Source: Clostridia bacterium
Lineage (GTDB): Bacteria > Bacillota > Clostridia > Christensenellales > CAG-138
Length of the DNA stretch: 50,684 bases
Assembly (NCBI GenBank): GCA_017394835.1
Contig: JAFPXD010000041.1
Location: 1-50,684, forward strand
Reading direction: 5' to 3'
In this document: positions 21,089-50,684 of the stretch, in pieces
Numbering within the stretch: position 1 is the stretch's first letter
Layout of the letters: each line of letters begins with the position of its first letter
Notes under the pieces: model-generated
The model's database searches: none
Seen by the model: only the letters and a program-made list of their open reading frames with translations
Told to the model about the DNA's origin: nothing
Made by a program: the position numbers and the translations under genes

Positions 21089-22303
21089 TCAGTTGACTCC
21101 CTCCGAGAACATATACGCGACGCCCTCGAGCCCGTAGAGCCGCTCTATCGTTTCCGCATCGCCCGTCAAGGCTATGCCATAGACGGAAAAGCCGTTTTCT
21201 GCGATGTATTCGGCGGATTCGCGCATACCGTCCGCGACGGAGTCCACCTCCGCGTCGGGATAGAAGAGCTTCATATCGCTCCTGTTATCCGAGAACCAGT
21301 TGAGAAGGCTCACGATATGCTTCGTCATAAGCTCCTTTCCGGCATAGTTCTCCGTTCTGTCGGCCGCCTCGGAAAGGGAATAGACCGAGAGATATGGGTA
21401 TTTTTCATCATCAAAGCCCTGCATTACGCTCGTGAGCGCGAACCTTGCCCCGAAGAAGCGGGAAGTCTTCACCTCGTCCCCTGTACAAACGGCTCCCCAC
21501 ATCGCGCTGACGTCGTTCCGTTCGCACCATGCTATGACCTCGTCATAATCCATAGGTCTGTTGAAGGTAACGTAGATCACGCGCTGTTCGCCCTCCTTGG
21601 CGCCGTTCAATGCGTAATCGAGGCCATATAAGCCTTCAAAGCTGACCCGAACGCCGCCATGAACGCCCGCGGCGACGGTATCAAACAGATTCATAACGGG
21701 GAGCTTTATGAGATTTGGATCGTACAGCGTGAGCTTGCCTCGGTCTATAACGCCCGCGACGTCGCGGAAGGAGCCGCCGTTGGCAAAGTTCTGGTGAACG
21801 CAAATGCTGTATCTGCCGTAGCCTGAGCTCTCGGCGCTGACGAGCTCTCTGAACCCCGCGGGCAGCAGCAGCTCGGAATAAACGGCGATATCGCGGCTTA
21901 TGCGGTTGGTCTTGACCTGATCCCACACCTTGCCGTCACTATCCTTATACATGCCGACGATTTCGGTGGGATCATAATTCAAGCGGTCAACGATCTTGGG
22001 CAGAGCGTACGTGCAAAATAACACTATGCCGAGCACCAAAAGCCCCGTGATGAGCCCTGCCTTCAGAAACGCCCTGCGGATCTGCCTTTTGATCTTCTTC
22101 GTAAAGTCAGCGGCGCCGTCATTCTGCGCGGCTTCGCCCTTATTACCGTTTGAGCGAAGCATTTCAAGCTCAGGGATATCCTCCCTCTCCGCGAGGTAAT
22201 CGGAGATCGCCTCGTGCTTTTCTATATCGCGCTCGACCTCGCCCGCTTCGGTTTCATTGAGCTCGCCTTTTTCGTATTTTTCGATCAGTTCGGAATACTT
22301 CAT
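21089..22303 (-). CDS. Anti-sigma factor with Sigma_reg_N/Sigma_reg_C-type domains
   Basis: 404-residue membrane protein encoded with the ECF sigma factor. The cytoplasmic N-terminus (about 1-75) starts MKYSELIEKYEKGELNETEA, like the sigma-regulator N domain and lacking a zinc HxxxCxxC motif. One TM helix spans about 80-103. The large outer part contains a sensor-like domain with YVTFNRPMDYDEVIAWCE, as in Sigma_reg_C proteins. It is expected to hold the sigma factor at the membrane until an envelope signal arrives. Its ATG overlaps the sigma stop (ATGA), so translation is coupled. Confidence 0.82.
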   Translation of the reverse strand: MKYSELIEKYEKGELNETEAGEVERDIEKHEAISDYLAEREDIPELEMLRSNGNKGEAAQNDGAADFTKKIKRQIRRAFLKAGLITGLLVLGIVLFCTYALPKIVDRLNYDPTEIVGMYKDSDGKVWDQVKTNRISRDIAVYSELLLPAGFRELVSAESSGYGRYSICVHQNFANGGSFRDVAGVIDRGKLTLYDPNLIKLPVMNLFDTVAAGVHGGVRVSFEGLYGLDYALNGAKEGEQRVIYVTFNRPMDYDEVIAWCERNDVSAMWGAVCTGDEVKTSRFFGARFALTSVMQGFDDEKYPYLSVYSLSEAADRTENYAGKELMTKHIVSLLNWFSDNRSDMKLFYPDAEVDSVADGMRESAEYIAENGFSVYGIALTGDAETIERLYGLEGVAYMFSEGVN

Positions 22304-22788
22304 TTTTGATTATCCTCCAAATATTTTTTCAGTTCTTTCTTCGCCCTGTACGCCAGTACACGAACGTTTTCGAGCGTCAGCCCCATGACGGAGGCTATTT
22401 CGGAAAACGACAGATCCGAGAAGTAGTGGAGCCGGATCACTTCTCGCTTTCTTTCGTCGAGCCTTGATACAGCCATTCTGAGCCTTTCGTTTTCCTGCTT
22501 CTCGATCATCAGCTCTTCGGGAGAAGCGGCTCTGTCTTCGCCCTCCGACTCAAGCCCCGGAGTCTCGAATCTTGATCTTCGCGCTCTGTCAAGAAAAAGG
22601 TTCCTTGCGACGGTATAGAGCCATGCGCGCGCATTCGAATGCGAATCGGGAAGTGAGAGAAGCGCCTTGACGAAGGTTTCCTGCATAAGTTCCTCCGCGG
22701 TCGCTTTGTTTCCGCAGAGGCTCAGAAGATAAAGGAATATCTCGCGGCTGTACTCTTCGTAAATAAGCTTCAGCGCGTCGTTTTTCAA
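22300..22788 (-). CDS. ECF-family RNA polymerase sigma factor
   Basis: 162-residue extracytoplasmic-function sigma factor. Region 2 has SREIFLYLLSLCGNKATAEELMQETF and NARAWLYTVARNLFLDRAR; region 4 has VSRLDERKREVIRLHYFSDLSFSEIASVMG, a helix-turn-helix for the -35 element. I chose the TTG at 22788 because AAGGAGGG lies 8-9 nt upstream; the in-frame ATG at 22821 would place that site inside the gene and has none of its own. The partner is the anti-sigma factor immediately downstream. Confidence 0.9.
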   Translation of the reverse strand: MKNDALKLIYEEYSREIFLYLLSLCGNKATAEELMQETFVKALLSLPDSHSNARAWLYTVARNLFLDRARRSRFETPGLESEGEDRAASPEELMIEKQENERLRMAVSRLDERKREVIRLHYFSDLSFSEIASVMGLTLENVRVLAYRAKKELKKYLEDNQK

Positions 22789-22830
22789 TCCGCTTCCCTC
22801 CTTTCCTTTCAATTCGACCATATAACGAAT

Positions 22831-24526: not shown

Positions 24527-24559
24527 AAGGAGCCCCGTTATTGCAGCGGGGCTCCTTTT
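24527..24559. terminator. Terminator shared by ywlG and the redox operon
   Basis: 11-bp stem AAGGAGCCCCG (24527-24537) with CGGGGCTCCTT (24547-24557) followed by TT; U-rich in both directions enough to serve the convergent six-gene operon. Confidence 0.8.
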
Positions 24560-24575
24560 GTATTGGCCTTAATTC

Positions 24576-25724
24576 TTACTTCCTCTTCCTGCTTGATGCA
24601 AGAGCGGCGCCCGCGCATACCGCGATAACGCCAACGAAGGCAAGGCTCATGCCGCCCGTCACGGGGGGCTCGGGGTTGGGATCGACGGGCTCGGCGGGCT
24701 CGCCGGGCACGGCAGGCTCCGTGGGATCGGCGGGCTCCGTGGGATCGGCGGGCTCGGTGGGATCGACGGGCTCATCGCTGCCGAACACGAACTCATCGTT
24801 ATAGCGAACGGCTTCGCACCCAGCAAGGAACACGCCGTCGGTCATAACGTCGGCAATGCCGTCATCGGTGAAGCCGAAGAAGCCCATAATATCGTTATAA
24901 GCGCGCTCAAGGGCTTCGAACCTTGTGCCGGAGGTGACCACGTCGGAGGGATCTTCAACCGCGGTATAGCGCACGCCCTTGGTATCATCGGAGCGGATAT
25001 AGTCCCTCTCGTTGAGGCAGACGTAATAGCTGTCAAAGAGGCCGTCTTCCGTAAAGAACTTCATGGCGCGGATCTGAACGGTCATAACGTCCTTGTTGAC
25101 AACTGAAATGCAGTTATCCTCAACGGTGACCTTGCCCACGGAGAAGTGGGTGGGCAGCCTGTACTGACCGATCGTGACGGAAACGGGCAGCGTTACGAGG
25201 GTATCCTTTGCGGCGCCGGTGATGATGACTTCGATCACGTCGCCGGGGAGCAGATCGACAACGAGCGCGCCATCCCTTATATCGGCGTTTTCATAGCCGG
25301 GAAGGGGCATGCAGAAGCCGTTGTCATAATCGCAGTAGGAGTTGCCCACAAGGCCGGTGCCCTCGACAAGCTCCGCATTTTCAAGGCCGGCAAGATCCAC
25401 AAGGAGCTCTATCTGGTGCAGGGCTTCCTCATCATATTCGGCGTAATCCCAGGGAATATCCGCGCGAACGGCAAAAGTCACGGTATCGCCCGCGGCAAAG
25501 GGCTCGTCTTCCATGGGGACCCAAACGTTGTAGCTCTCGCCCCAAGGGGTCTGCTCAACGGCGGGCTCGTTTTCAACACGCTCGATCTCAACGGGGAAGA
25601 AGGGTTCTTCGACCGTCTCGATCTCGGGCATGCCGGGATCTTCATCATAGCCGGTGAAGGCGAATACGGGGAGCGCCGCAGTCATAAGAAGAGCGGCAAG
25701 CAGTACAGCAACGATCTTTTTCAT
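24576..25724 (-). CDS. Cell-surface protein with Pro-Thr stalk and PPVTG sortase-like signal
   Basis: 382-residue secreted protein; I do not recognise its main domain. A signal peptide (1-22) is followed by an acidic segment, then a beta-rich region (about 60-310) including AAGDTVTFAVRADIPW and TLVTLPVSVTIGQYRLP. Cysteines occur in NSYC, NGFC, DNC, YVC and AGC contexts. A DPTEPA-type repeat stalk ends in NPEPPVTGG, one hydrophobic helix and SSRKRK. PPVTG fits the (S/P)PxTG sorting motif known from Clostridioides difficile sortase, so wall attachment is likely. The ATG at 25724 follows AAAGGAGAATTACT. Last gene of the six-gene operon, 17 nt after the polyferredoxin. Candidate thiol substrate or terminal component of that system (inference). 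Confidence 0.8.
   Translation of the reverse strand: MKKIVAVLLAALLMTAALPVFAFTGYDEDPGMPEIETVEEPFFPVEIERVENEPAVEQTPWGESYNVWVPMEDEPFAAGDTVTFAVRADIPWDYAEYDEEALHQIELLVDLAGLENAELVEGTGLVGNSYCDYDNGFCMPLPGYENADIRDGALVVDLLPGDVIEVIITGAAKDTLVTLPVSVTIGQYRLPTHFSVGKVTVEDNCISVVNKDVMTVQIRAMKFFTEDGLFDSYYVCLNERDYIRSDDTKGVRYTAVEDPSDVVTSGTRFEALERAYNDIMGFFGFTDDGIADVMTDGVFLAGCEAVRYNDEFVFGSDEPVDPTEPADPTEPADPTEPAVPGEPAEPVDPNPEPPVTGGMSLAFVGVIAVCAGAALASSRKRK
24715..24775 (-). repeat. 18-bp tandem repeats encoding DPTEPA units
   Basis: Three to four near-identical 18-bp units encode the DPTEPA stalk of the surface protein. Confidence 0.75.
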
Positions 25725-25741
25725 AGTAATTCTCCTTTTAA

Positions 25742-26884
25742 TTATTTTCTCTTTGAAACGCGTATCGCCCGACCTTCCGCGGTCTTGAGCTTGAAGCCGG
25801 GGCGGATCGCCTTTTGGGGACAGGACGCTGCGCAGGTCCCGCAGCGGATACATTCGGGGCTGTTGGGATCCTTTACCGGATCGACGCCCATCGGGCAGAC
25901 CTTTGCGCAGGCGGAGCAGCCCTTACAGCGATTGCAGGCGGTATCGTCTATGCCGTATCGGTAGAGCGAGACCTTATTGAACAGGGAATAGATGGCGCCG
26001 AGCGGGCAGATATACCTGCAGAACGGCCTGTAAAGGAACACGGACAGCACCACTATGAAAGTAAGTATGGAGCACTTGAGCACCGTCAGCGTGCCCGCCG
26101 CATCCGCAAGGCCCTTATCCATGCTCATAAGCGGAATGCCGCCAAGCAGCATGCCGGAGGGGCAGACGTACTTGCAGAACCAGGGGTTGGCCTTTACCAT
26201 AAGGGGCAGGAATATGACCATCACTATAAGGAAGGCATATTTTGCGTACCTCAGATACCTATCGAGCCCAAGCAGGAACCTTACGAAGCCGGGATGTGCG
26301 GCTCTGTTTATCGAAGCCTCGTTCCTGGGGAGCTTTATCTTCTTTACGGGGATCTTGTAGAGCAGATCCTGCACCCAGCCGAAGGGGCAAAGGAGGCCGC
26401 AGACGAGCCTTCCGCACAGAGCGCCTATCACCATCAGGATGCCTATCACATAGACGGCGACCCAATAGAGGGGAGCCTGAACGTATGTGCCGGACTGGGA
26501 AACGTAGGACTTTTTCCAATCGAATTCATCGAGTATCGCCTGCAGGGCGCCTATGGGGCAGGAGCCGAACGCGCCGGGGCAGGAATAGCAGTTCATGCCC
26601 GGTACGCACATGTATTTTATGGGGCCCTGATAGATGGTGCCCTTTATCCAGCCTATCATAAAGCTGTTGGTGAGGGCGAACCACATCGTCTGGATAAGGA
26701 GCTTCGTCCTCTGCCAGACCTTATTGCCGAACGAGCGGACGCGGAGCCTCCCCTTGGCGAGCAATATGATGAAGCCCGCTATGCAGACGGCTATCACTCC
26801 GAGCGTGAGCCACGCGCCGAGACGGACGGTGGGATCCGCCGCCATGCTTTCATCTATTCCGAGGAGCCAAAGCAGTTTTTCCAT
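25742..26884 (-). CDS. NapH-like membrane 4Fe-4S protein (polyferredoxin)
   Basis: 380-residue integral membrane iron-sulfur protein. About six TM helices alternate with cysteine motifs: CVPGMNCYSCPGAFGSCPIG, CGLLCPFGW, FCKYVCPSG and FCRYICPLG. The C-terminus holds two 4Fe-4S ferredoxin motifs, CNRCKGCSACAKVCP and CIRCGTCAASCP. NapH/RnfA-like proteins of this type pass electrons between quinol or cytoplasmic donors and extracytoplasmic partners. The ATG at 26884 follows GAGGAGGTAGGCT, overlapping the end of the CXXC mini-protein gene by context (11 nt gap). Its operon partners are thioredoxin-like proteins, suggesting it powers extracytoplasmic thiol reduction. Confidence 0.92.
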   Translation of the reverse strand: MEKLLWLLGIDESMAADPTVRLGAWLTLGVIAVCIAGFIILLAKGRLRVRSFGNKVWQRTKLLIQTMWFALTNSFMIGWIKGTIYQGPIKYMCVPGMNCYSCPGAFGSCPIGALQAILDEFDWKKSYVSQSGTYVQAPLYWVAVYVIGILMVIGALCGRLVCGLLCPFGWVQDLLYKIPVKKIKLPRNEASINRAAHPGFVRFLLGLDRYLRYAKYAFLIVMVIFLPLMVKANPWFCKYVCPSGMLLGGIPLMSMDKGLADAAGTLTVLKCSILTFIVVLSVFLYRPFCRYICPLGAIYSLFNKVSLYRYGIDDTACNRCKGCSACAKVCPMGVDPVKDPNSPECIRCGTCAASCPQKAIRPGFKLKTAEGRAIRVSKRK

Positions 26885-26895
26885 AGCCTACCTCC

Positions 26896-27048
26896 TCAGC
26901 CTATGCCAATGCATTCCATGCAGATCGAGATCGCCTTGCGCAGCACCGCGCCGGCTTCGCCGTCGGTCACGCCATAGACGATGCAGCCTGCGCCGATCAG
27001 CACGAGCAGTACGGGGAAGAAATACCTTGTGAACACGCTTTTTTTCAT
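26896..27048 (-). CDS. CD1871A-type CXXC motif mini membrane protein
   Basis: 50-residue gene, short and easily missed. MKKSVFTRYFFPVLLVLIGA starts with a positive N-terminus and one TM helix (about 8-26), then a hydrophilic stretch and the terminus SICMECIGIG with a CMEC pair. This matches the clostridial family known as CD1871A family CXXC motif-containing proteins, which I recall next to membrane 4Fe-4S proteins. Function unknown; the CXXC suggests a thiol relay between membrane and surface. The ATG at 27048 follows AAGGTGAGAGC. Lies 9 nt after the TlpA lipoprotein gene and 11 nt before the polyferredoxin. Confidence 0.88.
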   Translation of the reverse strand: MKKSVFTRYFFPVLLVLIGAGCIVYGVTDGEAGAVLRKAISICMECIGIG

Positions 27049-27057
27049 GCTCTCACC

Positions 27058-28059
27058 TTACCATCCTATTATTCCCTCAATGGTTTTCTTCCATTGTTCA
27101 AAAGTCTGTGTTCCCATATGTGGTTCCCCGATAAGCTTTCCGTTTTCATCAAAGAATAATGTGACCGGTAAAGCGGTGGACTTAAGATACCTATCAAAGG
27201 CGGCTTTTATGGAATCGTTCCTTCTGAGAGCAGGAAGAGTTATTCCATTCGACGCCATAATGCCCTTCGCCCTTTCTACAGCACCGGACTCGCCGGAATC
27301 ATACAAAACAGTAAGAATTGTAAGCTTGCTGGAATAAAGCTCAGAGCATTGTTGAATATAAGGCAATTCTACAATGCATGGACCGCATGACGTGGACCAG
27401 AAGTTTATCATAGTAAACTTCTTTTCTTGGAACACACTCTCATTGTATTCCTGATTGTAAACAATGTCCCAAGTCTTGAACACATGGTCAGGGGTGGGCT
27501 TGGGAGTCGCCGTGGGTTTGGCGGTCGGCTTCGGAGTAGGCGTGGGCTTGGGAGTCGCGGTCGGGTTTGCCGTGGGCTTGGGAGTCGCCGTGGGCTTGGG
27601 TGTGGGGGTCGCCTTAGGAGTCGCCGTGGGCTTGGGAGTCGCAGTCGGCTTGGGAGTCGCAGTCGGCTTGGGAGTCGCAGTCGAGCCGGGCTCCGGAGTG
27701 GGGCCGGGCGTGGGCTCGGGCTCGGGCGTGGGCTGCTCTGTGGGAACCTCGGTCGGGCTCTCGGTGGGAGCCTCGGTCGGCTCGTCGGTATCTGCGGGCT
27801 CGTCGGTATCCACGGGCTCGTCTGAAACAACGGGCTCGTCGGTATCCGCGGGCTCGTCTGAAACAACGGGCTCTTCCGTGACGACGGGCTCATCCGTGGG
27901 CTCCCCGGCGGGATCGGGCGCTTCCGTGGTGAAGGCCTCCTTGGGTTCCGCCGTGGGGTTGGGATTTTGGGCTACGCGCCAGGTGTAGCATCCCGCAAGG
28001 CTCATGAGCATAGCGGCAAGCAGGAGAAGCGCGGCTGCGGTTTTGATCTTGTTTTTCAT
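27058..28059 (-). CDS. TlpA-like thioredoxin lipoprotein with long Pro/Thr stalk
   Basis: 333-residue lipoprotein. The signal peptide ends at LAGC (Cys24). Residues about 35-188 form an extreme low-complexity stalk: first DEPVV/DTDEP units, then ATPKPT repeats. The C-terminal TlpA/ResA-type thioredoxin domain (about 192-333) has NFWSTSCGPCIVELP with an intact CGPC at 224-227, a cis-Pro segment ALPVTLFFDENGK and GEPHMG. It should reduce or isomerise thiols outside the membrane, held about 150 residues away from it. ATG at 28059, 5 nt after the dockerin gene; the ribosome binding site is weak, so coupling is likely. Confidence 0.92.
   Translation of the reverse strand: MKNKIKTAAALLLLAAMLMSLAGCYTWRVAQNPNPTAEPKEAFTTEAPDPAGEPTDEPVVTEEPVVSDEPADTDEPVVSDEPVDTDEPADTDEPTEAPTESPTEVPTEQPTPEPEPTPGPTPEPGSTATPKPTATPKPTATPKPTATPKATPTPKPTATPKPTANPTATPKPTPTPKPTAKPTATPKPTPDHVFKTWDIVYNQEYNESVFQEKKFTMINFWSTSCGPCIVELPYIQQCSELYSSKLTILTVLYDSGESGAVERAKGIMASNGITLPALRRNDSIKAAFDRYLKSTALPVTLFFDENGKLIGEPHMGTQTFEQWKKTIEGIIGW
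27491..27690 (-). repeat. 18-bp tandem repeats encoding ATPKPT units
   Basis: About ten degenerate 18-bp units encode the TPKPTA stalk of the TlpA lipoprotein. On the plus strand they read GTGGGCTTGGGAGTCGC and variants. Prone to copy-number change. Confidence 0.85.
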
Positions 28060-28064
28060 CGGCT

Positions 28065-28757
28065 TTATACCATTCCCATTGATATTCTGAATATGAGGAG
28101 CGCATCCGAAGCGTCTATCACGCCATCGGGATTTACGTCGCCGTGGGCGAGCATTGCGGGGGTGCAGCTCATCATATCCATTGCGATTCGCATGGCAACA
28201 AGGGCGTCTTCGGTGGTAACGACGCCGTTGAGCGTAATATCCCCATCCGGCTGCATGGGCGCCCATGCGGCGAGCCTTTCGAGGATCGCCGCCGCGGAGG
28301 TGAATTCCGCCTGCCACGCCTCAACAATTATGCCCTCGCTGTTGACTATGAAGGTCTGCGGGATGAAGGAAGATCCGTCCGCCGCCGAAAGCCACTGCTC
28401 TTCGCAGACGAACGAGGGGAAGGTTATCCCGTGGGAGCTCATGTATTCGAGCGCCGCGGCGGGAGTGCTCGTCGCATCGGTAAGGAGCGCGCCGTAAACG
28501 CCGAAATCGGGGCGCGCTTCATGCACCTGCTGCATCAGGGCGAGCTGGCGGAGCGAGGGAAAGCTCCACGTCGCCCAAAACATAACGACAGAAATGCCGT
28601 GCTCCGAGAATACGGAGCCGTCGATGGCGTTCCCGTCAACAGTTTCAGATGTAAAACCGCTCATATCCCTGCCGATCTGCGCGCGTAAACCTGCCGCCGT
28701 TACCGAAACGGCGAGGATGCAGACGGTGATGGCTAGGGCTGTGATGCATTTCATCAT
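28065..28757 (-). CDS. Secreted TlpA-like protein with SxxS active site and C-terminal dockerin
   Basis: 230-residue secreted protein. After a signal peptide (1-23), a thioredoxin-like domain (about 30-165) has VVMFWATWSFPSLRQL where the redox motif WCxPC is expected: both cysteines are serines (Ser65, Ser68). The later STSFIPQTFIV-type cis-Pro segment is kept as SSFIPQTFIVNSEG. The C-terminus (172-230) is a type I dockerin with two calcium-loop repeats, GDITLNGVVTTED and GDVNPDGVIDASD. So it is a redox-inactive thioredoxin fold that docks on a cohesin, most simply the one encoded 1 nt upstream. The start at 28757 could also be the next codon. Confidence 0.88.
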   Translation of the reverse strand: MMKCITALAITVCILAVSVTAAGLRAQIGRDMSGFTSETVDGNAIDGSVFSEHGISVVMFWATWSFPSLRQLALMQQVHEARPDFGVYGALLTDATSTPAAALEYMSSHGITFPSFVCEEQWLSAADGSSFIPQTFIVNSEGIIVEAWQAEFTSAAAILERLAAWAPMQPDGDITLNGVVTTEDALVAMRIAMDMMSCTPAMLAHGDVNPDGVIDASDALLIFRISMGMV

Positions 28758-28758
28758 A

Positions 28759-29742
28759 TTATGCCTTCTTCTTTTTGGCGATCAGTATAACAACGAGCGC
28801 ACAGAGCGCGAGGAGCAGCAGCGAGCCGCCTGCTATGAGGCCCGTCTTGAGCGCCCTTTCGGACGCCGTACCCGGGTCGTGGGGGGATTCGGTGCTTATT
28901 TCCTTCGCATTATCGGGAGCCGGGCTGAATTCGGCATTGCCGGGCTCGCCGGAGGTCTCGGGCAGGTTCTCGGTGGGGCCTGCGGTGGAGTTGGGGTCTT
29001 CCGTCGCACCGGGATCGGCGCTTTCGCCGGGGCCGGCCGTCTCTCCGGGAGCGGGAGTGGGCTCTGTGCCTTCCGTCCTCCTTGTATTGTTATCGTCGGT
29101 ATTCGCGGGGCCCGTTGTCTCACCGGGCTTGGGAGTGTTCGCAGGACCGGGGGTATTTATGGCCTTGGGCGTGGCGGTGGGCTTGGGAGTCGCCTCCGGA
29201 CGCGAGGTGGGCGCGGGAGTCGTACCGGTGCCGGTGCCGCCGGTGATATGGATCGAGAAAGGCTCCGCGGTGTACGGGATGGGTTCGCTGTTGACCGCAC
29301 CCACGGGCATGTACTCGAACTCATCCACGAGGATGGTAAACGACGCCTCGGGGGAAGCGGTCGAGAGCACCTCGAACGTGAATTCTATGAACTCGCCCGG
29401 CTCCGTTGCCGGATCGGTGAGCATCATAAGACCGACCGCGATGGCGTTGCCATCCGGATTGATACTGCTGAGGGGGTATCCGCCAACGCCGATCGCGGCG
29501 TTGTAAGCATCCTTATTCTTCTTGCCGACGTAGCGCAGAGAGGTATTGTCGAAGAATACGCTCAGGTTGATAATATGAGCGGCAAATTCTCCGTCAATAT
29601 GGAGCGTTACCTTTACGGTATCGCCCACTTTGGCGGATGTATCGCCCGTGAGGTAGAACCTTGCTCCGCCGCTTGCGGAAGCGGGGATGGCGGCGAACGT
29701 GAGCAGCATCAAAGCTGCGAGAATCAATGCGATCTTTTTCAT
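28759..29742 (-). CDS. Membrane-anchored cohesin domain protein
   Basis: 327-residue surface protein. The signal peptide (1-24, ending SASA) is followed by a cohesin domain (about 25-167): AKVGDTVKVTLHIDGEF, AHIINLSVFFDNTSLRYVG, then EFIEFTFEVLS and FEYMPVGAVNSEPIPY. A Pro/Thr/Gly-rich stalk (about 168-290) leads to one C-terminal TM helix (about 298-322) and KKKKA. It should display one cohesin from the cell membrane. It shares the PVG...SPIP ending and FD/FFDxxxL strand with the cohesin inside the nuclease at 40466-43147. The ATG at 29742 has AAAGGA 9 nt upstream. First gene of the six-gene operon, next to a dockerin gene. Confidence 0.88.
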   Translation of the reverse strand: MKKIALILAALMLLTFAAIPASASGGARFYLTGDTSAKVGDTVKVTLHIDGEFAAHIINLSVFFDNTSLRYVGKKNKDAYNAAIGVGGYPLSSINPDGNAIAVGLMMLTDPATEPGEFIEFTFEVLSTASPEASFTILVDEFEYMPVGAVNSEPIPYTAEPFSIHITGGTGTGTTPAPTSRPEATPKPTATPKAINTPGPANTPKPGETTGPANTDDNNTRRTEGTEPTPAPGETAGPGESADPGATEDPNSTAGPTENLPETSGEPGNAEFSPAPDNAKEISTESPHDPGTASERALKTGLIAGGSLLLLALCALVVILIAKKKKA

Positions 29743-29788
29743 CTATAATGTTCCTTTCGGTGTACTTTTCAATCGATACCCTTTTTAT

Positions 29789-29817
29789 ATTCTATCACAA
29801 TACCCGCCTCATTGCAA
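29789..29817 (-). promoter_or_regulatory. Promoter of the six-gene cohesin/redox operon
   Basis: Minus strand: TTGCAA (29817-29812), 17 nt, TAGAAT (29794-29789), about 45 nt before the cohesin ATG. No other good promoter was seen within the operon, whose gene gaps are 1, 5, 9, 11 and 17 nt. Confidence 0.75.
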
Positions 29818-40465: not shown

Positions 40466-40759
40466 TTATCCCTGGATGTACGAATACAGCGCGGAAAGAT
40501 CCGCCGCAGTGAGGAAGCCGTCGCCGTTCATATCGCCGTTTGCGACGCCCTGAGCGGTGACCTCGCCCGCGGACATGGAATATGCCGCAGCCAAGGTTAT
40601 ATCGGCGGAATCGACTATGCCGTCGCAGTTGACGTCGCCCTTGAGATACTGGGAGGGAGCGTTCTGCTCATACAGAGCGGTGACGGTGAGATCGGTCGTC
40701 ACAAAAGAGAAATCCGTATCCCAGCCTATGAATGTGTAACCCTCGCGCCCGGGGACTTC
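40466..40759 (-). repeat. Copy 1 of a 294-bp near-identical 3' gene segment
   Basis: Matches 45369-45662 with about four single-base differences that I could see. Encodes the end of the InlB repeat and the whole dockerin. Confidence 0.9.
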
Positions 40760-43147
40760 TGGAGCGGCGGCCGACGCGCCTTCCTCGACCTCCTGCACGG
40801 AAAGCACTGTGCCGTCCCAATCAACGAAGGTCACGGTGTGATAAACGTGCGCGGCGGGGATGAATTTGTATAGGTACAGATCCTTAGCGTTGCTCAGCAG
40901 ATAGGGGCGGAAATCGCTCTGATATATGCTTATGCCCCTGCCATTTGCCGAGGAGTCAGTGCTTTTCAGGAAGAAATTCGAGGTGGAATTGCCGTTCCTG
41001 TACTCAACGGTAAAGCCCGACTCCGCGGTTTGGGCCGCTGCAAAGCCGCTCGTGCTGTCGCCGTTTATAACACAGTAGATGTTCTCCGCGGCATTGTAAA
41101 GGGTAACGGAGCCATCCGCCTGTTTTTCGAGGCGCCAAACGACCTCCGCGGCGGGATCGACCACGGTATCGCCCGAGATCGTGACCGCTTCGGCCGCAAA
41201 TCTGCCGCTGCTGCTGAACACAGCGCTCATCGCTCCCTTATTGTTTCCGTTCACGCCGTAAAGCACGTAATCGCCGTCGGTTATATCCGCAATATCCGTC
41301 ACGAGCACGTAGCTGCCCTCGCCCGCGGGAGTGGGCGCGGCGGTGGGTTCCGCGGTGGGTTCCGCGGTGGGCTCGGGAGTGGGCGTGGGATCGGGCTCGG
41401 CCATCAGTATTGCGCCGTCATAATCGTCATGGGGGATCGGGGAAGGCATTGCCTGGCCAATGGGAGCATAATCAAAGGAAACCACGTTTATGTGAAGGGG
41501 CTGATCCTGCGTGCAGTTTTCGGAAACGGTAAAGCGCAGGTTCGCGAGCACGCCGCTGCCCGTCACGGGATCGCTAATGCCGAGTATCGTAAAGGCCGCG
41601 GTCCCCTGAACGGAGGTCTCGGGGAAGAACATCGCCCCTTCCGCAGCGGAAACGAGCGGCCCGGAGGTCACGGCGTTAAGCGTGAGCATATCGGGATCGA
41701 ATTCGACCTTGACCAGAATGGAATGAGCTTCATATTCCCCGCTGACTGTCACGGGGACGGTCACGGTCTCGCCGGGATGGACGCCGGTCGCCGTGCCGAC
41801 GGATATTATGCAGGGAGTTTCGGGAACGCCCGTACCGTCCCACTGCGCAAGAGTATAGATCACGCCCGCATTGCCGCCCATCCAACCGCTCCAGCCGCTC
41901 ATGCCGTTCACGTAATAGATCTTGAGACCTTCGGGCAGTTCATTGATATCGGAGCCGGAGATCAGGGGGTTGACAATATCCTCGTTTTCGAAAACGGGGG
42001 CTGCGCCGCTGAAATAGACGCCCGTGAGCGAGGGGCATCTGCGCAGAGCCCTGCGTGCGAACGTGACGGCGGAAGCCGACTGCACGTAAAGCGAAGCGAG
42101 GGCGGGATCGTTATAGAAGGCGTGGGAGCCTATCTTCGTTACGCTTTCCGGGAGCAAGACGGAGGTAAGCTCCGTGTTGTTCGCAAAGGAAGCGCAGCCG
42201 AGCTCCGTTACGGGGCAGCCGCCGAGGGTATCGGGAACGCTGACAGCGGAGGCGGAACCGTTATAGGAGACTATGACCGCGGAGCCGTCCTTTACGTAAT
42301 AGGTGTAATCGCCGCTCGTCACGGGAGTATAGTCGAAGCCGTTTTCGGCGGAGCCGTAAACGAGCCTGCCGAATTCGGGATAATCTATAAATACGTTGCG
42401 GTTGCCCTGAACGCTTTCCGCATAGTCGTTGCGGGTCTGTTCAGAGGTATCGGCGGGATCCAGAAGGTTCCATTCGAGAAGAGTTTGGAAGGTATCGTCC
42501 GAAACGGGGCTCTTCAGATCCTCGCCCCAGCGGGCGGCAACGTAGAAATAGATGCGCGCTACGTCGCCTTTCACGGTGTCGCACGGCTCTATCTCATTGC
42601 CGGCGTTGATATAGCACTCGGTCTCGATCACAGCGGAAGAGCTATGATAAATGATCTCGTCTCCGGGAGAGTCGATCCACGCCATCAGACGGCTGCCGCG
42701 GGCGTTGTTGACCGAAGGATCCGTGGGGCGGATATGGTGCAGATCCGCGCCGGCATTGCTCGTTGAGAAGGAGCCGAGCGACTGCGGCCATACGTGCTCG
42801 CGGTTAAAGGTGACTCCGGAATCCCATGAGCCGTTTGCGGAAACGCGGCTGTAGAAAAGGATCAGATTGCCGGGAACGGCGGGATCGGGATCGGAGCCTA
42901 CAAGCATATCCCTTATCTCGTTATAGCTCGTAATATGGGTATGGGTGCGCGTCATCAGGCTGTTCAGATCGGAAAGAAGCGCATTGCCGCTTTCGGCAAG
43001 CAGAGCGCCGATGTTGACGCCGTTATCGGTATAGTACGAGCCGGAGTATTCCGTCTCGATGGGAGCGGCCTGCGGGATCGCATAAGCGGGCAGGACCGCA
43101 AGCAGCATGAGCGCCGCAATGAGCAGCGCGGCTATTCGTTTGAACAC
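40466..43147 (-). CDS. Secreted EndoI-type nuclease with BspA repeats, cohesin, InlB repeat and dockerin
   Basis: 893-residue modular exoprotein. Signal peptide (1-23); nuclease domain of the endonuclease I family (about 35-275) with FNREHVWPQSLG (114-125) and DLHHIRPTDPSVNNARG (135-151), the His-metal-type active site; BspA-like leucine-rich repeats (about 285-440); a cohesin domain (about 445-582); a Pro/Thr linker; an unassigned beta-rich domain (about 611-765); an InlB B-repeat (about 768-828) with GYTFIGWDTDF; and a type I dockerin (837-893) with DVNCDGIVDSAD and DMNGDGFLTAAD. Carrying both cohesin and dockerin, it can act as an adaptor. The start is GTG at 43147 after AAGGAGGCTGAAACT. 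Confidence 0.9.
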   Translation of the reverse strand: MFKRIAALLIAALMLLAVLPAYAIPQAAPIETEYSGSYYTDNGVNIGALLAESGNALLSDLNSLMTRTHTHITSYNEIRDMLVGSDPDPAVPGNLILFYSRVSANGSWDSGVTFNREHVWPQSLGSFSTSNAGADLHHIRPTDPSVNNARGSRLMAWIDSPGDEIIYHSSSAVIETECYINAGNEIEPCDTVKGDVARIYFYVAARWGEDLKSPVSDDTFQTLLEWNLLDPADTSEQTRNDYAESVQGNRNVFIDYPEFGRLVYGSAENGFDYTPVTSGDYTYYVKDGSAVIVSYNGSASAVSVPDTLGGCPVTELGCASFANNTELTSVLLPESVTKIGSHAFYNDPALASLYVQSASAVTFARRALRRCPSLTGVYFSGAAPVFENEDIVNPLISGSDINELPEGLKIYYVNGMSGWSGWMGGNAGVIYTLAQWDGTGVPETPCIISVGTATGVHPGETVTVPVTVSGEYEAHSILVKVEFDPDMLTLNAVTSGPLVSAAEGAMFFPETSVQGTAAFTILGISDPVTGSGVLANLRFTVSENCTQDQPLHINVVSFDYAPIGQAMPSPIPHDDYDGAILMAEPDPTPTPEPTAEPTAEPTAAPTPAGEGSYVLVTDIADITDGDYVLYGVNGNNKGAMSAVFSSSGRFAAEAVTISGDTVVDPAAEVVWRLEKQADGSVTLYNAAENIYCVINGDSTSGFAAAQTAESGFTVEYRNGNSTSNFFLKSTDSSANGRGISIYQSDFRPYLLSNAKDLYLYKFIPAAHVYHTVTFVDWDGTVLSVQEVEEGASAAAPEVPGREGYTFIGWDTDFSFVTTDLTVTALYEQNAPSQYLKGDVNCDGIVDSADITLAAAYSMSAGEVTAQGVANGDMNGDGFLTAADLSALYSYIQG

Positions 43148-45368: not shown

Positions 45369-45662
45369 TTATCCCTGGATGTACGAATACAGCGCGGAAA
45401 GATCCGCCGCGGTGAGGAAGCCGTCGCCGTTCATATCGCCGTTTGCGACGCCCTGAGCGGTGACCTCGCCCGCGGACATGGAGTATGCCGCAGCCAAGGT
45501 TATATCGGCGGAATCGACTATGCCGTCGCAGTTGACGTCGCCCTTGAGATACTGGGAGGGAGCGTTCTGCTCATACAGAGCGGTGACGGTGAGATCGGTC
45601 GTCACGAAGGAGAAATCCGTATCCCAGCCTATGAATGTGTAACCCTCGCGCCCGGGGACTTC
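45369..45662 (-). repeat. Copy 2 of the 294-bp near-identical 3' gene segment
   Basis: Pairs with 40466-40759; identity ends abruptly after the codons for the segment before GREGYTF, beyond which the two genes differ. Confidence 0.9.
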
Positions 45663-47816
45663 GGGAGCGGCGGCCGATCCGCCGTAACCGACCGTCTGAG
45701 TTGAAAGCACTGCGCCGTCCCAATCGACGAACGTTACGGTGAAGCCCTCCAGCATGGGAATTTCGACCTCATAATACTGGGTCTCGAACGCCTCGTTTTC
45801 GAATTCGGCGGAATACCTGCCGAGGCCGGGAGCGGTGTAGGTGGGATCGGTCACAACGGTATAAACGGAGGCGGCCGTCTCGGTCTCAACGTGGGAAGCG
45901 TCCCTCGTGCAGGTGCGGGAAGCGGTGCATTCGCTGTGATCCGCGTTCCAGACGTATTCGGGCGCGTTCCAATCGTGACCGAGAGCGGGGATCTCGACGT
46001 TCTTCTGATAATCGTCGTAATAATCGGCGTCAACGGCGCTGCAGGTGCAGTAGCGGTAGCCGAGGCCCGCTTCCGTGCAGGTGGGCTCGTGCCCCTCGTA
46101 GGGAACGTAGGTATAGGTGTGGGTATGGGCGGGCCTGCCGCCGTCGGCGTTTTCAGCGGTGTAGAGGCTCAGCGTATGGAATCTCGCGCCGGGATCGCCC
46201 GCTTCATTGATCTTGGCCTGTATAACGGTGTAGGTATCCATGAAATGCGGCTCGGTGAGCTTTGTGGCGTAGGGGACGAGGCTCCATTTGCCGAAATCGA
46301 ACTTATCCGCAAGCTTGTTGCTGGTGATGAACGAGGAGGCGCCGCTGATGATATTGCCAACGCCGCCCTGACCTACCTCGGCCAGCAGCTCGACGAGCAC
46401 CTGCATGCAGTATGCGGGGGTCTGGCAGATGCCGCCGTCCCAATAGCTGTACTTGCGGAGGCGGACGGGATACTTATTGTAGTAATCGGTCTCATACGGC
46501 CCACCGATCAAAGCCCATGCGCGGAAGGTAGTGGACTGATAATTGCCGTTCGTTTCGCCCGCATGGTTATGACCGCAGTGGTAAACATATACCTCGCGCC
46601 AGCCCAATATCTTGCCGGGGTTATCGCGGTCCGCATTCTCGCCGGTGATGCAGATGAACTTGCCGAGCAGGGTGTTCATATCGCTCGCGGAGATATAATT
46701 GCCGTCATAGGTAACGCCCGTGAGGGTCTTTATATCGTTCTTCCACTGGGAAGCGTCAACCATCGCCGTCTTGCCGTAGCGGGTGAAGCCCCAGGCGGTC
46801 ATGGGCAGCATGGGCACGAAATCGTTGGAGTTTACCAGATTGAATATGCAGTCGTACCTTTCCGCCGAAGCTTCGGTATTGGCAGTATTGTTGGGCGACG
46901 CATAGGTATAGGCGTAGATCTCGTTACCCTCGTCGATAAGATAGGAGGCCATGAGATTTGCCACCGCCGCGCCCCTCGAATGGCCCGTGAGCCAGTACGT
47001 GAGCGACGCGCCGGGGTTGGCTTCGAGCTCGGAAGTCACGTATTCATCAAGATAATAGGTTTTAAGATAGTTCAAAAGCCTCGTCGCACAGACGTCGAAG
47101 CCGCGGTGATTTGTCTTGCGCGTCCAATCGTCGTTGCGCTGACGGAGGGGCTTGTCCGCGTTGGAATCGTACTCGTCAAAGAAGCGCACGAGATCGCCCA
47201 CGTTGAAATTCGAGCTCCACTCCTCGGCGGATTTGGGCTCCGTGCCGCGCACCCAGATGGCGATTATTATTTTGGTTTCGCCGTTGTAGGTCACAGCCTG
47301 GTGGCCTATCGTGACTTCGCAGATATCGTCGTCGCCATAATGATCGAGAGTGTAGTTGACAACGTCCTTAAAGCCGAAAACGGGCATGAGCGCGGGGCCG
47401 TCGAACTGAATGCCCGTGCCGCTTTCCCAACTCTGATAATCATCGAACCTTATATAGGTGGGCGGGGAATCCTGCGATTCGGTATTGTAGTACGCCAGCG
47501 CGGATCCTATCGCCGAAAAGCTCGCAAGCTCGGGGTGATAAACGGTGTTGTCCCCAAAGAAATCGCGGAAGTCCACCGTGAACGAAACCGTGGTGGTCTG
47601 GTTTTCATGGCTGCTGCGGAGCTGCCCCGTGAAAACGTTGCTGCCGGGATCCGCATCGTAAGCGTCGGGGATGCCGTCATAATCCGAATCGGGCTCGCCG
47701 GGATCCTTTAGGACCGAGGGGCGTGCGCTGTGGGCAAAAACTCCGTCGGCCGCGCATATTGCCGCGAGCATAACGACTGCCAGCAGGATCGAGAGCATTT
47801 TTTTGAACAGTTTCAT
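45369..47816 (-). CDS. Secreted class 3 lipase with InlB repeat and dockerin
   Basis: 815-residue exoprotein. Signal peptide (1-29), then a short calcium-type DSDYDGIPDAYDADP segment (43-57). The lipase domain (about 90-580) has WVRGTEP, the nucleophile motif TGHSRGAAVANL (Ser280), VNSNDFVPMLP (likely acid) and EPHFMDTY (likely His). Then a Cys/His-rich repeat region with EPTCTEAGLGYRYCTC and HDWNAPEYVWNADHSECTASRTC, an InlB B-repeat and a type I dockerin almost identical to that of the nuclease. The ATG at 47816 follows AGAGGTACCGATC. Lipid substrate unknown. Confidence 0.9.
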   Translation of the reverse strand: MKLFKKMLSILLAVVMLAAICAADGVFAHSARPSVLKDPGEPDSDYDGIPDAYDADPGSNVFTGQLRSSHENQTTTVSFTVDFRDFFGDNTVYHPELASFSAIGSALAYYNTESQDSPPTYIRFDDYQSWESGTGIQFDGPALMPVFGFKDVVNYTLDHYGDDDICEVTIGHQAVTYNGETKIIIAIWVRGTEPKSAEEWSSNFNVGDLVRFFDEYDSNADKPLRQRNDDWTRKTNHRGFDVCATRLLNYLKTYYLDEYVTSELEANPGASLTYWLTGHSRGAAVANLMASYLIDEGNEIYAYTYASPNNTANTEASAERYDCIFNLVNSNDFVPMLPMTAWGFTRYGKTAMVDASQWKNDIKTLTGVTYDGNYISASDMNTLLGKFICITGENADRDNPGKILGWREVYVYHCGHNHAGETNGNYQSTTFRAWALIGGPYETDYYNKYPVRLRKYSYWDGGICQTPAYCMQVLVELLAEVGQGGVGNIISGASSFITSNKLADKFDFGKWSLVPYATKLTEPHFMDTYTVIQAKINEAGDPGARFHTLSLYTAENADGGRPAHTHTYTYVPYEGHEPTCTEAGLGYRYCTCSAVDADYYDDYQKNVEIPALGHDWNAPEYVWNADHSECTASRTCTRDASHVETETAASVYTVVTDPTYTAPGLGRYSAEFENEAFETQYYEVEIPMLEGFTVTFVDWDGAVLSTQTVGYGGSAAAPEVPGREGYTFIGWDTDFSFVTTDLTVTALYEQNAPSQYLKGDVNCDGIVDSADITLAAAYSMSAGEVTAQGVANGDMNGDGFLTAADLSALYSYIQG

Positions 47817-47988: not shown

Positions 47989-50139
47989 TCAGCCCTGTAT
48001 GAAGCTGTACAGAGCGGAGAGGTCGGCAGCGGTCAATACGCCGTCGCCGTTCATGTCGCCGTTGGCAATGCCCTGCTCGGAAACGCTGCCCGCGGACATC
48101 GCGTATGCCGCCGCAAGGGTGATATCCGCGGAATCAATGACGTCGTCGCCGTTGACGTCCCCCGGCATACCGGTATCGACCTTGCGGAAGAACTGTACGT
48201 ATCTGTTTTCCGGGACGGAATAATTGATTCCCATCACCTCGTGCAGACCTTCTCTCCAGTGCTGAGCATAATAAGTCGTCGATCCATACCAGTATTTCGC
48301 TTCCCATGATAAGGTTTTATTAACGGGATCCCACTGCCAAGTTGAGATCCTGCCGCGCTCGGCCGCAGGACACAGATCGCCGTAATAATAAATACTGTTT
48401 GTATTGCTCGACAGGACGTATTCAGGCTGATAAACGCTCCGGAAGACGTACCCATCGTCATTGATCTCCACAGTCCAGGAACAGTGAAGAAGATCTTCCG
48501 CATTTCCGTGAACTCCGATAACTGCCTGCCCGGACATAAATGCCGGAGCGGTGAAACCGAGACCTGCCTCGCATATAACGGAAAAGTAGCAGTAATGATC
48601 GGCATTGAAGGGACTGTAACTGACGGCAAGATAGATCACATCATTATCTGCAAATCCGATCAGATATTCACCTTCGTTCGTCAGCTCGTCGGTTGGCTCC
48701 CATCGAACGGACTTCTTTACCTCGACGTCAACGGTATCGCTCATAACGGTCCCCGCAGTCGTCGTTAACACCGCAGTAACGGAAGCGGATCCAACGCAGA
48801 TCCCGTTGACTTTACACGATCTGCCGTCGGCGCTCGGCTCTATCGAGGCATTGCCGTTTGAGACCGTCCATTCAACACTGTACCGGTTGGCGTTCACGGG
48901 CGTAGTTTTAAGCTTAAGGTTGAGGCTCGTGCCCTGCACGACAGCCGACTGCTCTATATCGATGCCGTGATCATCGACGATTCGGAAGCTGTTGACGTTC
49001 ACCGGATCATTCGCGAAAAGGACCCAATCGCAGTTGACGGACTGATGACTGTTGGGATCGTCCGGGAACGGATCCGAAGCGCTCATAACTATCGGGTAAG
49101 CGCCGCACGAACTAAAGGGCTCGTAATACTCCATTGCTGCGGCAGTCGAATCGAAGGCTTCGGCAACGGTGGCTCCGTTGATCATTTCATGCCAGAAGAC
49201 CTCGCCATATTTGTATCTGCATCGATCCAAGCCTTCTGAAAAGCCGAAAACGCAGCCGGCTCCCGCGGCAAGAAGCGCGTTGCCGGTGGTGCCCTTGCCT
49301 GTTTTCGACATTATGCCGCACCCCATCCAAACAAAGCTGTTCTTGAGCGGGCCGTTTGCGTGATTTTGAATGTAACGTCCGTCGATATAGGTCAATACAA
49401 GCGTTGCCCCGGAAACACCCACTTCGTATCCATATACCGCCCATCCGTTCAAATAATCATCGGATGTAATGCCCTCATCTGTTGTGAGCTCTATATAGGA
49501 GCTGCTTCCGGTTACCATCTGGGATGAATCGACAATGATAACGCCGCTGTTTCCGATCCATGAAGCTACAAGAGGTGCGGTGGCATCGGTACCCAACAGC
49601 GCCCTGAACGAACCGTTGATGGCTTGAGAAACTGCATAGGCCTGATCACCTGACTCATGAGTATAGCCAATGTCATAAAAATCTATACCTCCGCCTTCAA
49701 TATCGACCATAGGGCAAATATAAAGCACGGTGTTTGAGCTTGGCCCGCCGGATCCGCTTCTTGTCATATCCGTATTTATTTCGTCTAATGCAGGGCTTGT
49801 TTCGGAAAACGTATGACCGTTGCGGCTGCTGTAGCTGTAAACGCAGTGCATACCGTCAACAGTGAAAGCAAACTGATCCTCGCTTTCCCATACGATACTG
49901 CCCTTATCTATGAGCGGGGTGTTCAGCGCCGCTATATAGAGCGCTTCCGCAGTTTCGCATGCAGTGGCTTTATGCTCGAGCATCTCGCTTTCAACATCCG
50001 ACATCGTTGACCAAGCTTCCTTGAGCTTTGCAAGCTTTCGTGTTTCCGAAGCCTCCTGTGCAAGCGACGATAACGGAACTACCGCCATTATCATCAGCAC
50101 GGAAAGAAGCAATACCAACAGTTTCATGACCCTTGACAT
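47989..50139 (-). CDS. Secreted dockerin protein with a possible caspase-fold (CHAT-like) domain
   Basis: 716-residue exoprotein. Signal peptide (1-28). Residues about 135-355 follow the order seen in caspase-fold CHAT/C25-like domains: VLYICPMVDIEGG, a small-residue strand GNSGVIIVDSS, a late strand SFVWMGCGIMSKTGKGT (Cys274 where the catalytic Cys would be), ALLAAGAGCVFGF and GATVAEAFDSTAAAM. The usual His of the HG pair is absent (NSG at 197-199), so it may be inactive or another fold. Then a bacterial Ig-like (BIG2) domain (about 385-480), an unassigned beta domain and a type I dockerin. ATG at 50139 after AAGGAGGACAACGA. Confidence 0.7.
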   Translation of the reverse strand: MSRVMKLLVLLLSVLMIMAVVPLSSLAQEASETRKLAKLKEAWSTMSDVESEMLEHKATACETAEALYIAALNTPLIDKGSIVWESEDQFAFTVDGMHCVYSYSSRNGHTFSETSPALDEINTDMTRSGSGGPSSNTVLYICPMVDIEGGGIDFYDIGYTHESGDQAYAVSQAINGSFRALLGTDATAPLVASWIGNSGVIIVDSSQMVTGSSSYIELTTDEGITSDDYLNGWAVYGYEVGVSGATLVLTYIDGRYIQNHANGPLKNSFVWMGCGIMSKTGKGTTGNALLAAGAGCVFGFSEGLDRCRYKYGEVFWHEMINGATVAEAFDSTAAAMEYYEPFSSCGAYPIVMSASDPFPDDPNSHQSVNCDWVLFANDPVNVNSFRIVDDHGIDIEQSAVVQGTSLNLKLKTTPVNANRYSVEWTVSNGNASIEPSADGRSCKVNGICVGSASVTAVLTTTAGTVMSDTVDVEVKKSVRWEPTDELTNEGEYLIGFADNDVIYLAVSYSPFNADHYCYFSVICEAGLGFTAPAFMSGQAVIGVHGNAEDLLHCSWTVEINDDGYVFRSVYQPEYVLSSNTNSIYYYGDLCPAAERGRISTWQWDPVNKTLSWEAKYWYGSTTYYAQHWREGLHEVMGINYSVPENRYVQFFRKVDTGMPGDVNGDDVIDSADITLAAAYAMSAGSVSEQGIANGDMNGDGVLTAADLSALYSFIQG

Positions 50140-50280
50140 TTCGTTGTCCTCCTTTTTGGTTATGGCATTTATAAGTCTTGGTTTTTCACTTCTGATAACA
50201 CAGGAGCGAGCCTGCAGATCCCGGCAAGGCCGCGGCGGCGAGTCAATGCGGAGCAAAATAAAGAACAGAGCCCCGTCGGG

Positions 50281-50325: not shown

Positions 50326-50684
50326 TCAGCCCTGTATGAAGCTGTACAGCGCGGAAAGGTCGGCCGCGGTGAGGAGGCCGTCGCCGTTCATGTCGCCGTT
50401 CGCAACGCCCTGCTCGGAAACGCTGCCCGCGGACATCGCGTATGCCGCCGCAAGGGTGATGTCGGCGGAATCGACAATGCCGTCGCAGTTGACGTCGCCC
50501 TTCAGATACTCGGAGGGAGCGTTCTGCTCATACTGAGCGGTAACGGTGAGGTCGCCGGTCACGTTGGTGAAGTCAACGTCCCAACCGGTGAAGGTGTAGC
50601 CTTCGCGCTCGGGATCCGCGGGAGCGGTGGCCGCACTGCCGTGCTCTACCTCCTGAGTGGAGATCTCGGTGCCGTCCCAATCGA
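50326..50684 (-). CDS. Dockerin protein, C-terminal part only (runs off the window)
   Basis: Only the last 118 residues are in the window; the reading frame continues past 50684. They hold an InlB B-repeat (DWDGTEISTQEVEHG ... GYTFTGWDVDF) and a type I dockerin with DVNCDGIVDSAD and DMNGDGLLTAAD. The dockerin belongs to the YAMSAGSVSEQG subtype shared with the 47989 gene, while the InlB repeat is more like those of the nuclease and lipase. Third of the tandem minus-strand dockerin genes. The catalytic domain cannot be known from this window. Confidence 0.85.
   Translation of the reverse strand, partial: DWDGTEISTQEVEHGSAATAPADPEREGYTFTGWDVDFTNVTGDLTVTAQYEQNAPSEYLKGDVNCDGIVDSADITLAAAYAMSAGSVSEQGVANGDMNGDGLLTAADLSALYSFIQG

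Follow-up and report, generated by a model that had tools for sequence, protein, structure and literature searches.

The 50,684-nucleotide window analysed here (contig JAFPXD010000041.1 of assembly GCA_017394835.1, a Clostridia bacterium of the order Christensenellales) carries an operon of six consecutive open reading frames on its minus strand, separated by gaps of 1, 5, 9, 11 and 17 nt. In order of transcription they encode a cohesin, a dockerin-tagged thioredoxin-like protein (docTrx), a TlpA lipoprotein, a CD1871A-family mini-protein, a NapH-like polyferredoxin and a wall protein. The operon consists of two separable modules: module B comprises the cohesin and docTrx, and module A the TlpA-CD1871A-NapH relay together with the wall protein. 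Signal peptides, transmembrane (TM) stretches and the sortase-like end in the following list were read from the sequence.

29789..29817, minus strand: promoter-like site, TTGCAA-17-TAGAAT with TG before the -10 (9/12 consensus match; weak evidence)
28759..29742, minus strand: single cohesin with signal peptide, proline/threonine (P/T)-rich linker, C-terminal TM stretch and KKKK; module B
28065..28757, minus strand: docTrx (pseudo-TlpA-dockerin), a ResA-like thioredoxin fold without CXXC, then Dockerin_1; module B
28554..28568, minus strand: WSFPS of docTrx, residues 64-68, in the place of the lost CXXC active site
28404..28406, minus strand: Cys118 (C118) of docTrx, outside the active site
27058..28059, minus strand: TlpA lipoprotein with lipobox LAGC, P/T stalk of ~160 residues and CGPC thioredoxin domain; module A
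26896..27048, minus strand: CD1871A-family mini-protein with one TM-like stretch (from sequence) and CMEC (NF040920, 6.1e-14, over cut-off); module A
25742..26884, minus strand: NapH/MauN-like membrane polyferredoxin (Fer4_5, 1.7e-17); module A
24576..25724, minus strand: wall protein with C131-x6-C138 and a PPVTGG-TM-RKRK sortase-like end; module A
25332-25334, minus strand: C131 of the wall protein
25311-25313, minus strand: C138 of the wall protein
24527..24557, strand unassigned (listed on the plus strand only): 13-bp hairpin between convergent genes

The cohesin is recognized by PF00963 above the cut-off and has a cohesin fold. The model of its domain, made from an alignment with five relatives, reached a predicted local distance difference test score (pLDDT) of 91.7, and all 50 PDB matches listed are cohesin or scaffoldin entries. 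The protein is predicted to be membrane-anchored. docTrx aligns to ResA (4nmu) across the thioredoxin domain (E 9.7e-10), with WSFPS where ResA has WCxxC. Its dockerin exceeds the PF00404 cut-off (24.5 bits versus 22.9) and AhpC-TSA falls just below its own. Two calcium-loop repeats identify a type I dockerin, with G172, D173, D184, D207 and D218 invariant in 20 rows, and in the window copy the first of the loops is degenerate, reading DITLN. docTrx does not qualify as a TlpA/ResA oxidoreductase, as it has no CXXC active site, and with WSFPS in this place it is therefore not a dithiol carrier. A pseudogene can be ruled out: the frames of all 52 TlpA-dockerins compared below are open, and dN/dS ratios (nonsynonymous to synonymous substitution) of 0.15-0.33 in four close pairs of docTrx indicate purifying selection. 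One stop was seen inside the match to a docTrx relative in genome G032; its frame (L079) is open and among the 52. The cis-proline is present in 25/25 docTrx copies.

Within module A, the TlpA lipoprotein combines CGPC with a thioredoxin fold. Redoxin and Thioredoxin both score over cut-off, and with 43.1 against a cut-off of 170 the protein stays below the ResA subfamily. The mini-protein belongs to CD1871A (NF040920, 51.6 bits versus 32), a name under which no paper was found in the literature searched. The polyferredoxin is a relative of NapH proper and not a member, with 55.1 bits in TIGR02163 against a cut-off of 213. C131 and C138 of the wall protein are invariant in 23/23 sequences and lie on consecutive predicted strands (127-132 and 137-144), a placement that would allow a cross-strand disulfide. 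The AlphaFold2 model of this protein (pLDDT 80.5) gave weak matches to pilin and adhesin beta-sandwiches, with template modelling scores of ~0.2, and it was assigned to no family. The first-pass annotation of this DNA had described a dockerin-tagged thioredoxin-like protein and had taken all parts besides the cohesin for electron or thiol carriers. The fold and the dockerin of docTrx stand, as do the families of the CGPC TlpA, CD1871A and NapH-like proteins, but the lack of CXXC removes docTrx from the carriers.

Conservation and separability of the two modules

CD1871A was matched in 81 of the 103 genomes of the window's family, including the window's own, and its surroundings were fetched for 60 of the 80 others. 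Domains in these and the other fetched loci were called with small profiles of our own, not with Pfam. A thioredoxin-type gene was present in 58 of the 60 CD1871A loci and NapH in 58, with both in 57. Twenty loci from four genera have a dockerin gene in the upstream part of the cluster (nine from the window's genus, one from g4, nine of ten from g13 and one from g16); L106, which has an extra dockerin gene without thioredoxin 3' of NapH, is not among these. Nineteen of those 20 loci also contain the wall protein; none of the other 40 does. The cohesin was found in ten loci, nine of the same genus and one of g4. Eight of the nine same-genus loci preserve the six-gene order, and the ninth (L053) has neither TlpA lipoprotein nor wall protein. 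The operon described in the first-pass annotation is thus upheld, and order not conserved in any relative, its own ground for refutation, did not occur. Order conservation within the genus rules out a chance operon, and the 20 loci in four genera likewise show that the association is not accidental.

The two modules do not always travel together. All 13 genomes of the genus have the cohesin and docTrx pair, and relay genes were seen in 11 of them. Ten of these carry CD1871A and NapH (one, G087, without the TlpA lipoprotein); in the eleventh, G089, the pair lies on a 3.5-kb contig and the start of a TlpA lipoprotein gene constitutes the evidence for the relay. In the remaining two, G083 and G086, cohesin and docTrx occupy the site syntenic to that of the window and the other four genes are missing there. 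The flanking genes are the same as in the window, a long aminoacyl-tRNA-synthetase-like gene (valyl type by eye) on one side and a 2-hydroxyacid dehydrogenase gene on the other; the flanking proteins align with those of the window at 53-90% identity, and neither CD1871A nor the wall protein was found in the whole assemblies of G083 and G086. In g13, 10 of 11 genomes have the pair at a locus of its own, apart from the NapH cluster; in L218, from the eleventh, the sequence upstream of docTrx is cut off by the contig end. In the g4 locus (L057), the NapH cluster includes both genes, separated by a gene for a CGPC TlpA. Each module hence exists without the other. The joined arrangement in g4 and the docTrx tree, which places G083 and G086 inside the genus, would point to loss of the relay in these two genomes, whereas the cohesin tree places them outside the genus and g4, so that they may instead never have had it.

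Full-length or nearly full-length copies of the wall protein occur in 20/103 family genomes. An order-wide draw of 396 genomes, with four candidates scored per listed genome, gave matches in 14 genomes, every one of them from the window's family. In two wall proteins, L050 and P0024, a C-terminal dockerin replaces the sortase signal, and a second copy in G088 (L202, 7785-8930), away from the operon, also ends in a dockerin. Sortases are present in 13/13 genus genomes. The exchange of dockerin for sortase signal suggests two interchangeable anchoring routes, by cohesin and dockerin or by sortase, to one and the same surface.

The neighbours of the bare relay were inspected in named genomes for a hint at its function; they were mixed (judged by eye from N-termini) and gave no single lead. 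In L132, L133 and L136, genes resembling CobW-type metal-handling GTPases (again by eye from N-termini) lie 3' of NapH in the bare TlpA-CD1871A-NapH cluster.

Cohesin linkage and the active-site cysteine

The clearest difference among TlpA-dockerins concerns the nucleophilic cysteine, the first of the CXXC motif (C1). We counted it in 52 TlpA-dockerins from the fetched loci, of which those away from CD1871A loci are a selection among the matches listed. C1 is present in 0/24 cohesin-linked copies and, with the same selection, in 26/28 of those without a seen cohesin link. The two unlinked copies without C1 are L218, which belongs to the pair at a contig end, and L069 (9236-10387), which reads WSGNC; the count becomes 26/27 if L218 is excluded. 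A database alignment of 31 rows contains eight without C1, the remaining 23 having CGPC. It draws on 30 database matches, one of them (P0001) 99% identical to the window protein, and leaves out P0006, P0035 and P0057-P0069. The linked docTrx copies and L218 form a single clade (support 0.93), and the 24 cohesins linked to docTrx form one clade against 11 other cohesins (support 0.84; domains <70 residues are excluded from this tree). Since the linked copies and their cohesins each constitute one clade, the loss of C1 looks like one old change that has been kept since rather than many independent ones.

Two of the loci contain intact TlpA-dockerins that deserve mention. The window's own genome encodes a second one (contig C69, L165, 2645-3853) that is not linked to a cohesin and has an intact CGYC; Pfam reports no thioredoxin family for it at 1e-4, yet our own profile and the TlpA-dockerin search both matched it. 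L209 (7301-9670) carries a tandem array of three TlpA-dockerin genes, each of which retains CXXC (WCGPC, WCGPC and WCVPC).

The first-pass annotation had proposed that the cohesin organizes the whole electron chain, with the dockerin protein as a thiol carrier between the polyferredoxin and surface thiols. Conservation of the operon is consistent with this, and in g13 and g16, dockerin-tagged TlpA proteins encoded beside NapH retain C1 in 13/14 cases, so thiol carriers do bear dockerins there. However, where one of the fetched NapH clusters encodes a TlpA-dockerin with C1, no cohesin was found there, and the TlpA protein linked to a cohesin is without C1 in 24/24 cases. The first cysteine is needed for oxidoreductase activity: E. 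coli CnoX, with an SXXC thioredoxin domain, has none and uses a second cysteine for mixed disulfides (PMC6282202, text available in part). Together with the occurrence of the pair without relay in G083 and G086 and its separate loci in g13, this indicates that the cohesin is not primarily an organizer of the electron chain, and we consider the proposal improbable.

Another explanation is that the cohesin serves as a general anchor for many dockerin proteins, similar to ScaE or OlpA, that docTrx is its first structural cargo or a plug and that their co-transcription is incidental. Matches over cut-off in the genome number 42 for dockerins and 10 for cohesins, and many of the dockerins have ends of the DALLILR type like that of docTrx, so that the cohesin could serve other dockerins. 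Anchored single cohesins without docTrx were moreover seen in other genera of the family. In 18 of 18 single-cohesin loci of g2, g20 and g24 (G001, G038-G049, G091-G093, G095 and G096), no thioredoxin or dockerin gene was found within mostly 2-3 kb on each side, some stretches being shorter; our profile re-found the cohesin in 17 of these loci, L226 being the exception. The idea that docTrx accompanies every anchored single cohesin is ruled out by this control. The pair is therefore limited to one cohesin clade in three genera, and in the rest of the family anchored cohesins have other tasks. Against a general anchor stand the clade formed by the cohesins of the pair, the purifying selection on docTrx and the fact that 24 cohesins adjoin a TlpA-dockerin without C1 (in one case one gene away), in loci that were found via docTrx or CD1871A. 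On balance, we regard a general anchor as unlikely, though still a serious competitor.

A cellulosome was rejected because none of the 36 dockerin proteins scanned in the genome carries a glycoside hydrolase family (Pfam, E <= 1e-4); the scan leaves out docTrx and five contig-end fragments, and the assembly is 93% complete. The families that do occur on these 36 proteins include subtilases, M23, CotH, leucine-rich repeats, adhesin, lipase and endonuclease.

Several other cohesin and dockerin genes deserve a record. Four more dockerin proteins are encoded on the minus strand of the window at 40466-43147, 45369-47816, 47989-50256 and 50326-50682, the last being cut by the window end. One of them also has a cohesin, and all four end nearly identically in TAADLSALYS[YF]IQG, a second class next to the DALLILR type of docTrx. 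Contig C24 of the same genome (L181, 3275-6019) encodes a scaffoldin of 914 residues that has four cohesins and a C terminus resembling a TM stretch; in the tree, three of these cohesins are distant from that of the operon. In g20 (L227-L237), the single-cohesin proteins (~310-380 residues) share an acidic type of tail that finishes in a few basic residues (e.g. PPIQIVRR), and no thioredoxin or dockerin gene adjoins them. Downstream of the operon (21089-22821, minus strand), two genes look by eye like those for an RNA-polymerase sigma factor and its membrane-bound anti-sigma partner.

Proposed function and comparison with known systems

Tentatively, and at somewhat less than an even chance, we favour a two-module operon in which the cohesin probably presents the inactive thioredoxin on the cell surface as a client binder and the relay would maintain the remaining docTrx cysteine and the two cysteines of the wall protein in reduced form. 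Family knowledge suggests that electrons would enter the Fe-S clusters of the NapH-like protein from the cytoplasm, with ferredoxin as the probable donor, and go on to the CXXC of CD1871A; this may in turn reduce the CGPC of the TlpA lipoprotein, which could reach outward on its stalk. Transfer of electrons from thiols to low-potential clusters is uphill, and for this reason we infer reduction and not oxidation. The predicted membrane-anchored cohesin would display docTrx via its dockerin. In a CnoX-like manner, the cis-proline groove of docTrx may bind unfolded or oxidized surface proteins, and C118 could form mixed disulfides with these clients that the relay would resolve. The relay may also maintain the C-x6-C of the wall protein in the reduced state. 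It is likely that cohesin-dockerin display here serves redox biology and not plant-fibre digestion.

A link between the modules may lie in C118. This cysteine is present in 11/13 docTrx copies of the genus, exactly those from genomes with relay genes, and is missing in G083 and G086. A narrower version of the reading just given is a surface proteostasis device, in which the inactive thioredoxin presented by the cohesin captures oxidized or unfolded surface proteins, the ferredoxin-driven NapH-CD1871A-TlpA relay of the operon frees them by reduction of the mixed disulfides, and genomes without relay have no capture cysteine. We rate this version as rather doubtful. It could also be that module A alone is an extracytoplasmic reductase for cofactor assembly, wall-protein folding or peroxide defence, docTrx being a binding glue unrelated to thiols. 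The cluster of thioredoxin, CD1871A and NapH genes indeed occurs without cohesin, TlpA-dockerin and wall gene in most of the 40 loci lacking an upstream dockerin gene, and some docTrx copies have lost even the second cysteine of the motif (C2). The restriction of the wall protein to loci with dockerin genes (19/20 versus 0/40) and the tracking of the relay by C118 within the genus, as one event, speak against a module A acting alone, and we judge this to be distinctly unlikely.

A number of observations weigh against the client-binder reading that we favour. C2, retained in 21/25 docTrx copies, is absent from four, and the window copy is one of these. G083 and G086 are sisters in both the docTrx and the cohesin tree, so the absence of C118 from them counts as one event. 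In g4 and g13, docTrx has cysteines at other positions or none, the extra cysteines of g13 falling into two columns (9/11 and 7/11). Linkage and matching trees are equally expected from vertical inheritance, and the g4 locus has the pair inside the NapH cluster and split by a CGPC TlpA gene. A DsbD_TM/CcdA-like protein is encoded in 13/13 genus genomes; the relay is thus not the sole possible thiol route, and the idea that it might be was dropped. The genome's many further dockerins and the control loci with neither thioredoxin nor dockerin gene belong on the same side.

If the client-binder reading is true, uncultured gut Clostridia use cohesin-dockerin pairs, so far known chiefly for connecting cellulosomes, to display at their surface a thioredoxin that no longer catalyses. 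The Clostridia with this operon are uncultured, and some come from the rumen. The sharp split in C1 between linked and unlinked copies makes the function of docTrx directly testable, and the wall protein, with its invariant pair of cysteines, becomes a candidate partner of the CD1871A-NapH relay. In the literature searched, mostly by record only, a dockerin-tagged thioredoxin in such an operon was not found. In a paper on R. flavefaciens that mentions dockerin, thioredoxin and cohesin, the thioredoxin serves, in the part of the text available, as a fusion tag.

Single-cohesin surface anchors of cellulosomes are represented by R. flavefaciens ScaE and C. thermocellum OlpA. In contrast to these, the window cohesin has a thioredoxin-dockerin without C1 as its gene partner, and glycoside hydrolase families are absent from the 36 scanned dockerin proteins. 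Cohesin and dockerin proteins outside cellulosomes occur in C. perfringens, Archaeoglobus and ANME archaea. In ANME archaea, dockerins are found on substrate-binding proteins, outside fibre digestion (PMC9012536, text available in part). Unlike the window, the available part of that account names neither a thioredoxin-dockerin nor a thiol relay operon. docTrx resembles CnoX in the loss of C1 and in an extra cysteine, a comparison of how the two may work and of nothing else. CnoX has a TPR domain and the cytoplasmic partners GroEL and DnaK, whereas docTrx is secreted, of the TlpA type and fused to a dockerin, and the Pfam scan detected no TPR domain, so that it is not a member of the CnoX family. 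In the CcdA-Etrx-MsrAB2 system of S. pneumoniae, surface thioredoxin lipoproteins are fed through the membrane by CcdA (PMC3914529, text available in part). In the window, a NapH-like polyferredoxin and CD1871A replace CcdA, and no methionine sulfoxide reductase is found among the six genes. Also close is the bare TlpA-CD1871A-NapH cluster of Clostridia, for which NCBIfam NF040920 is the marker and which, like the window, has thioredoxin-type and NapH genes beside CD1871A (57/60 loci). The window differs from it in what is added, as 40 of these 60 loci have neither the wall protein nor an upstream dockerin gene and 50 have no cohesin.

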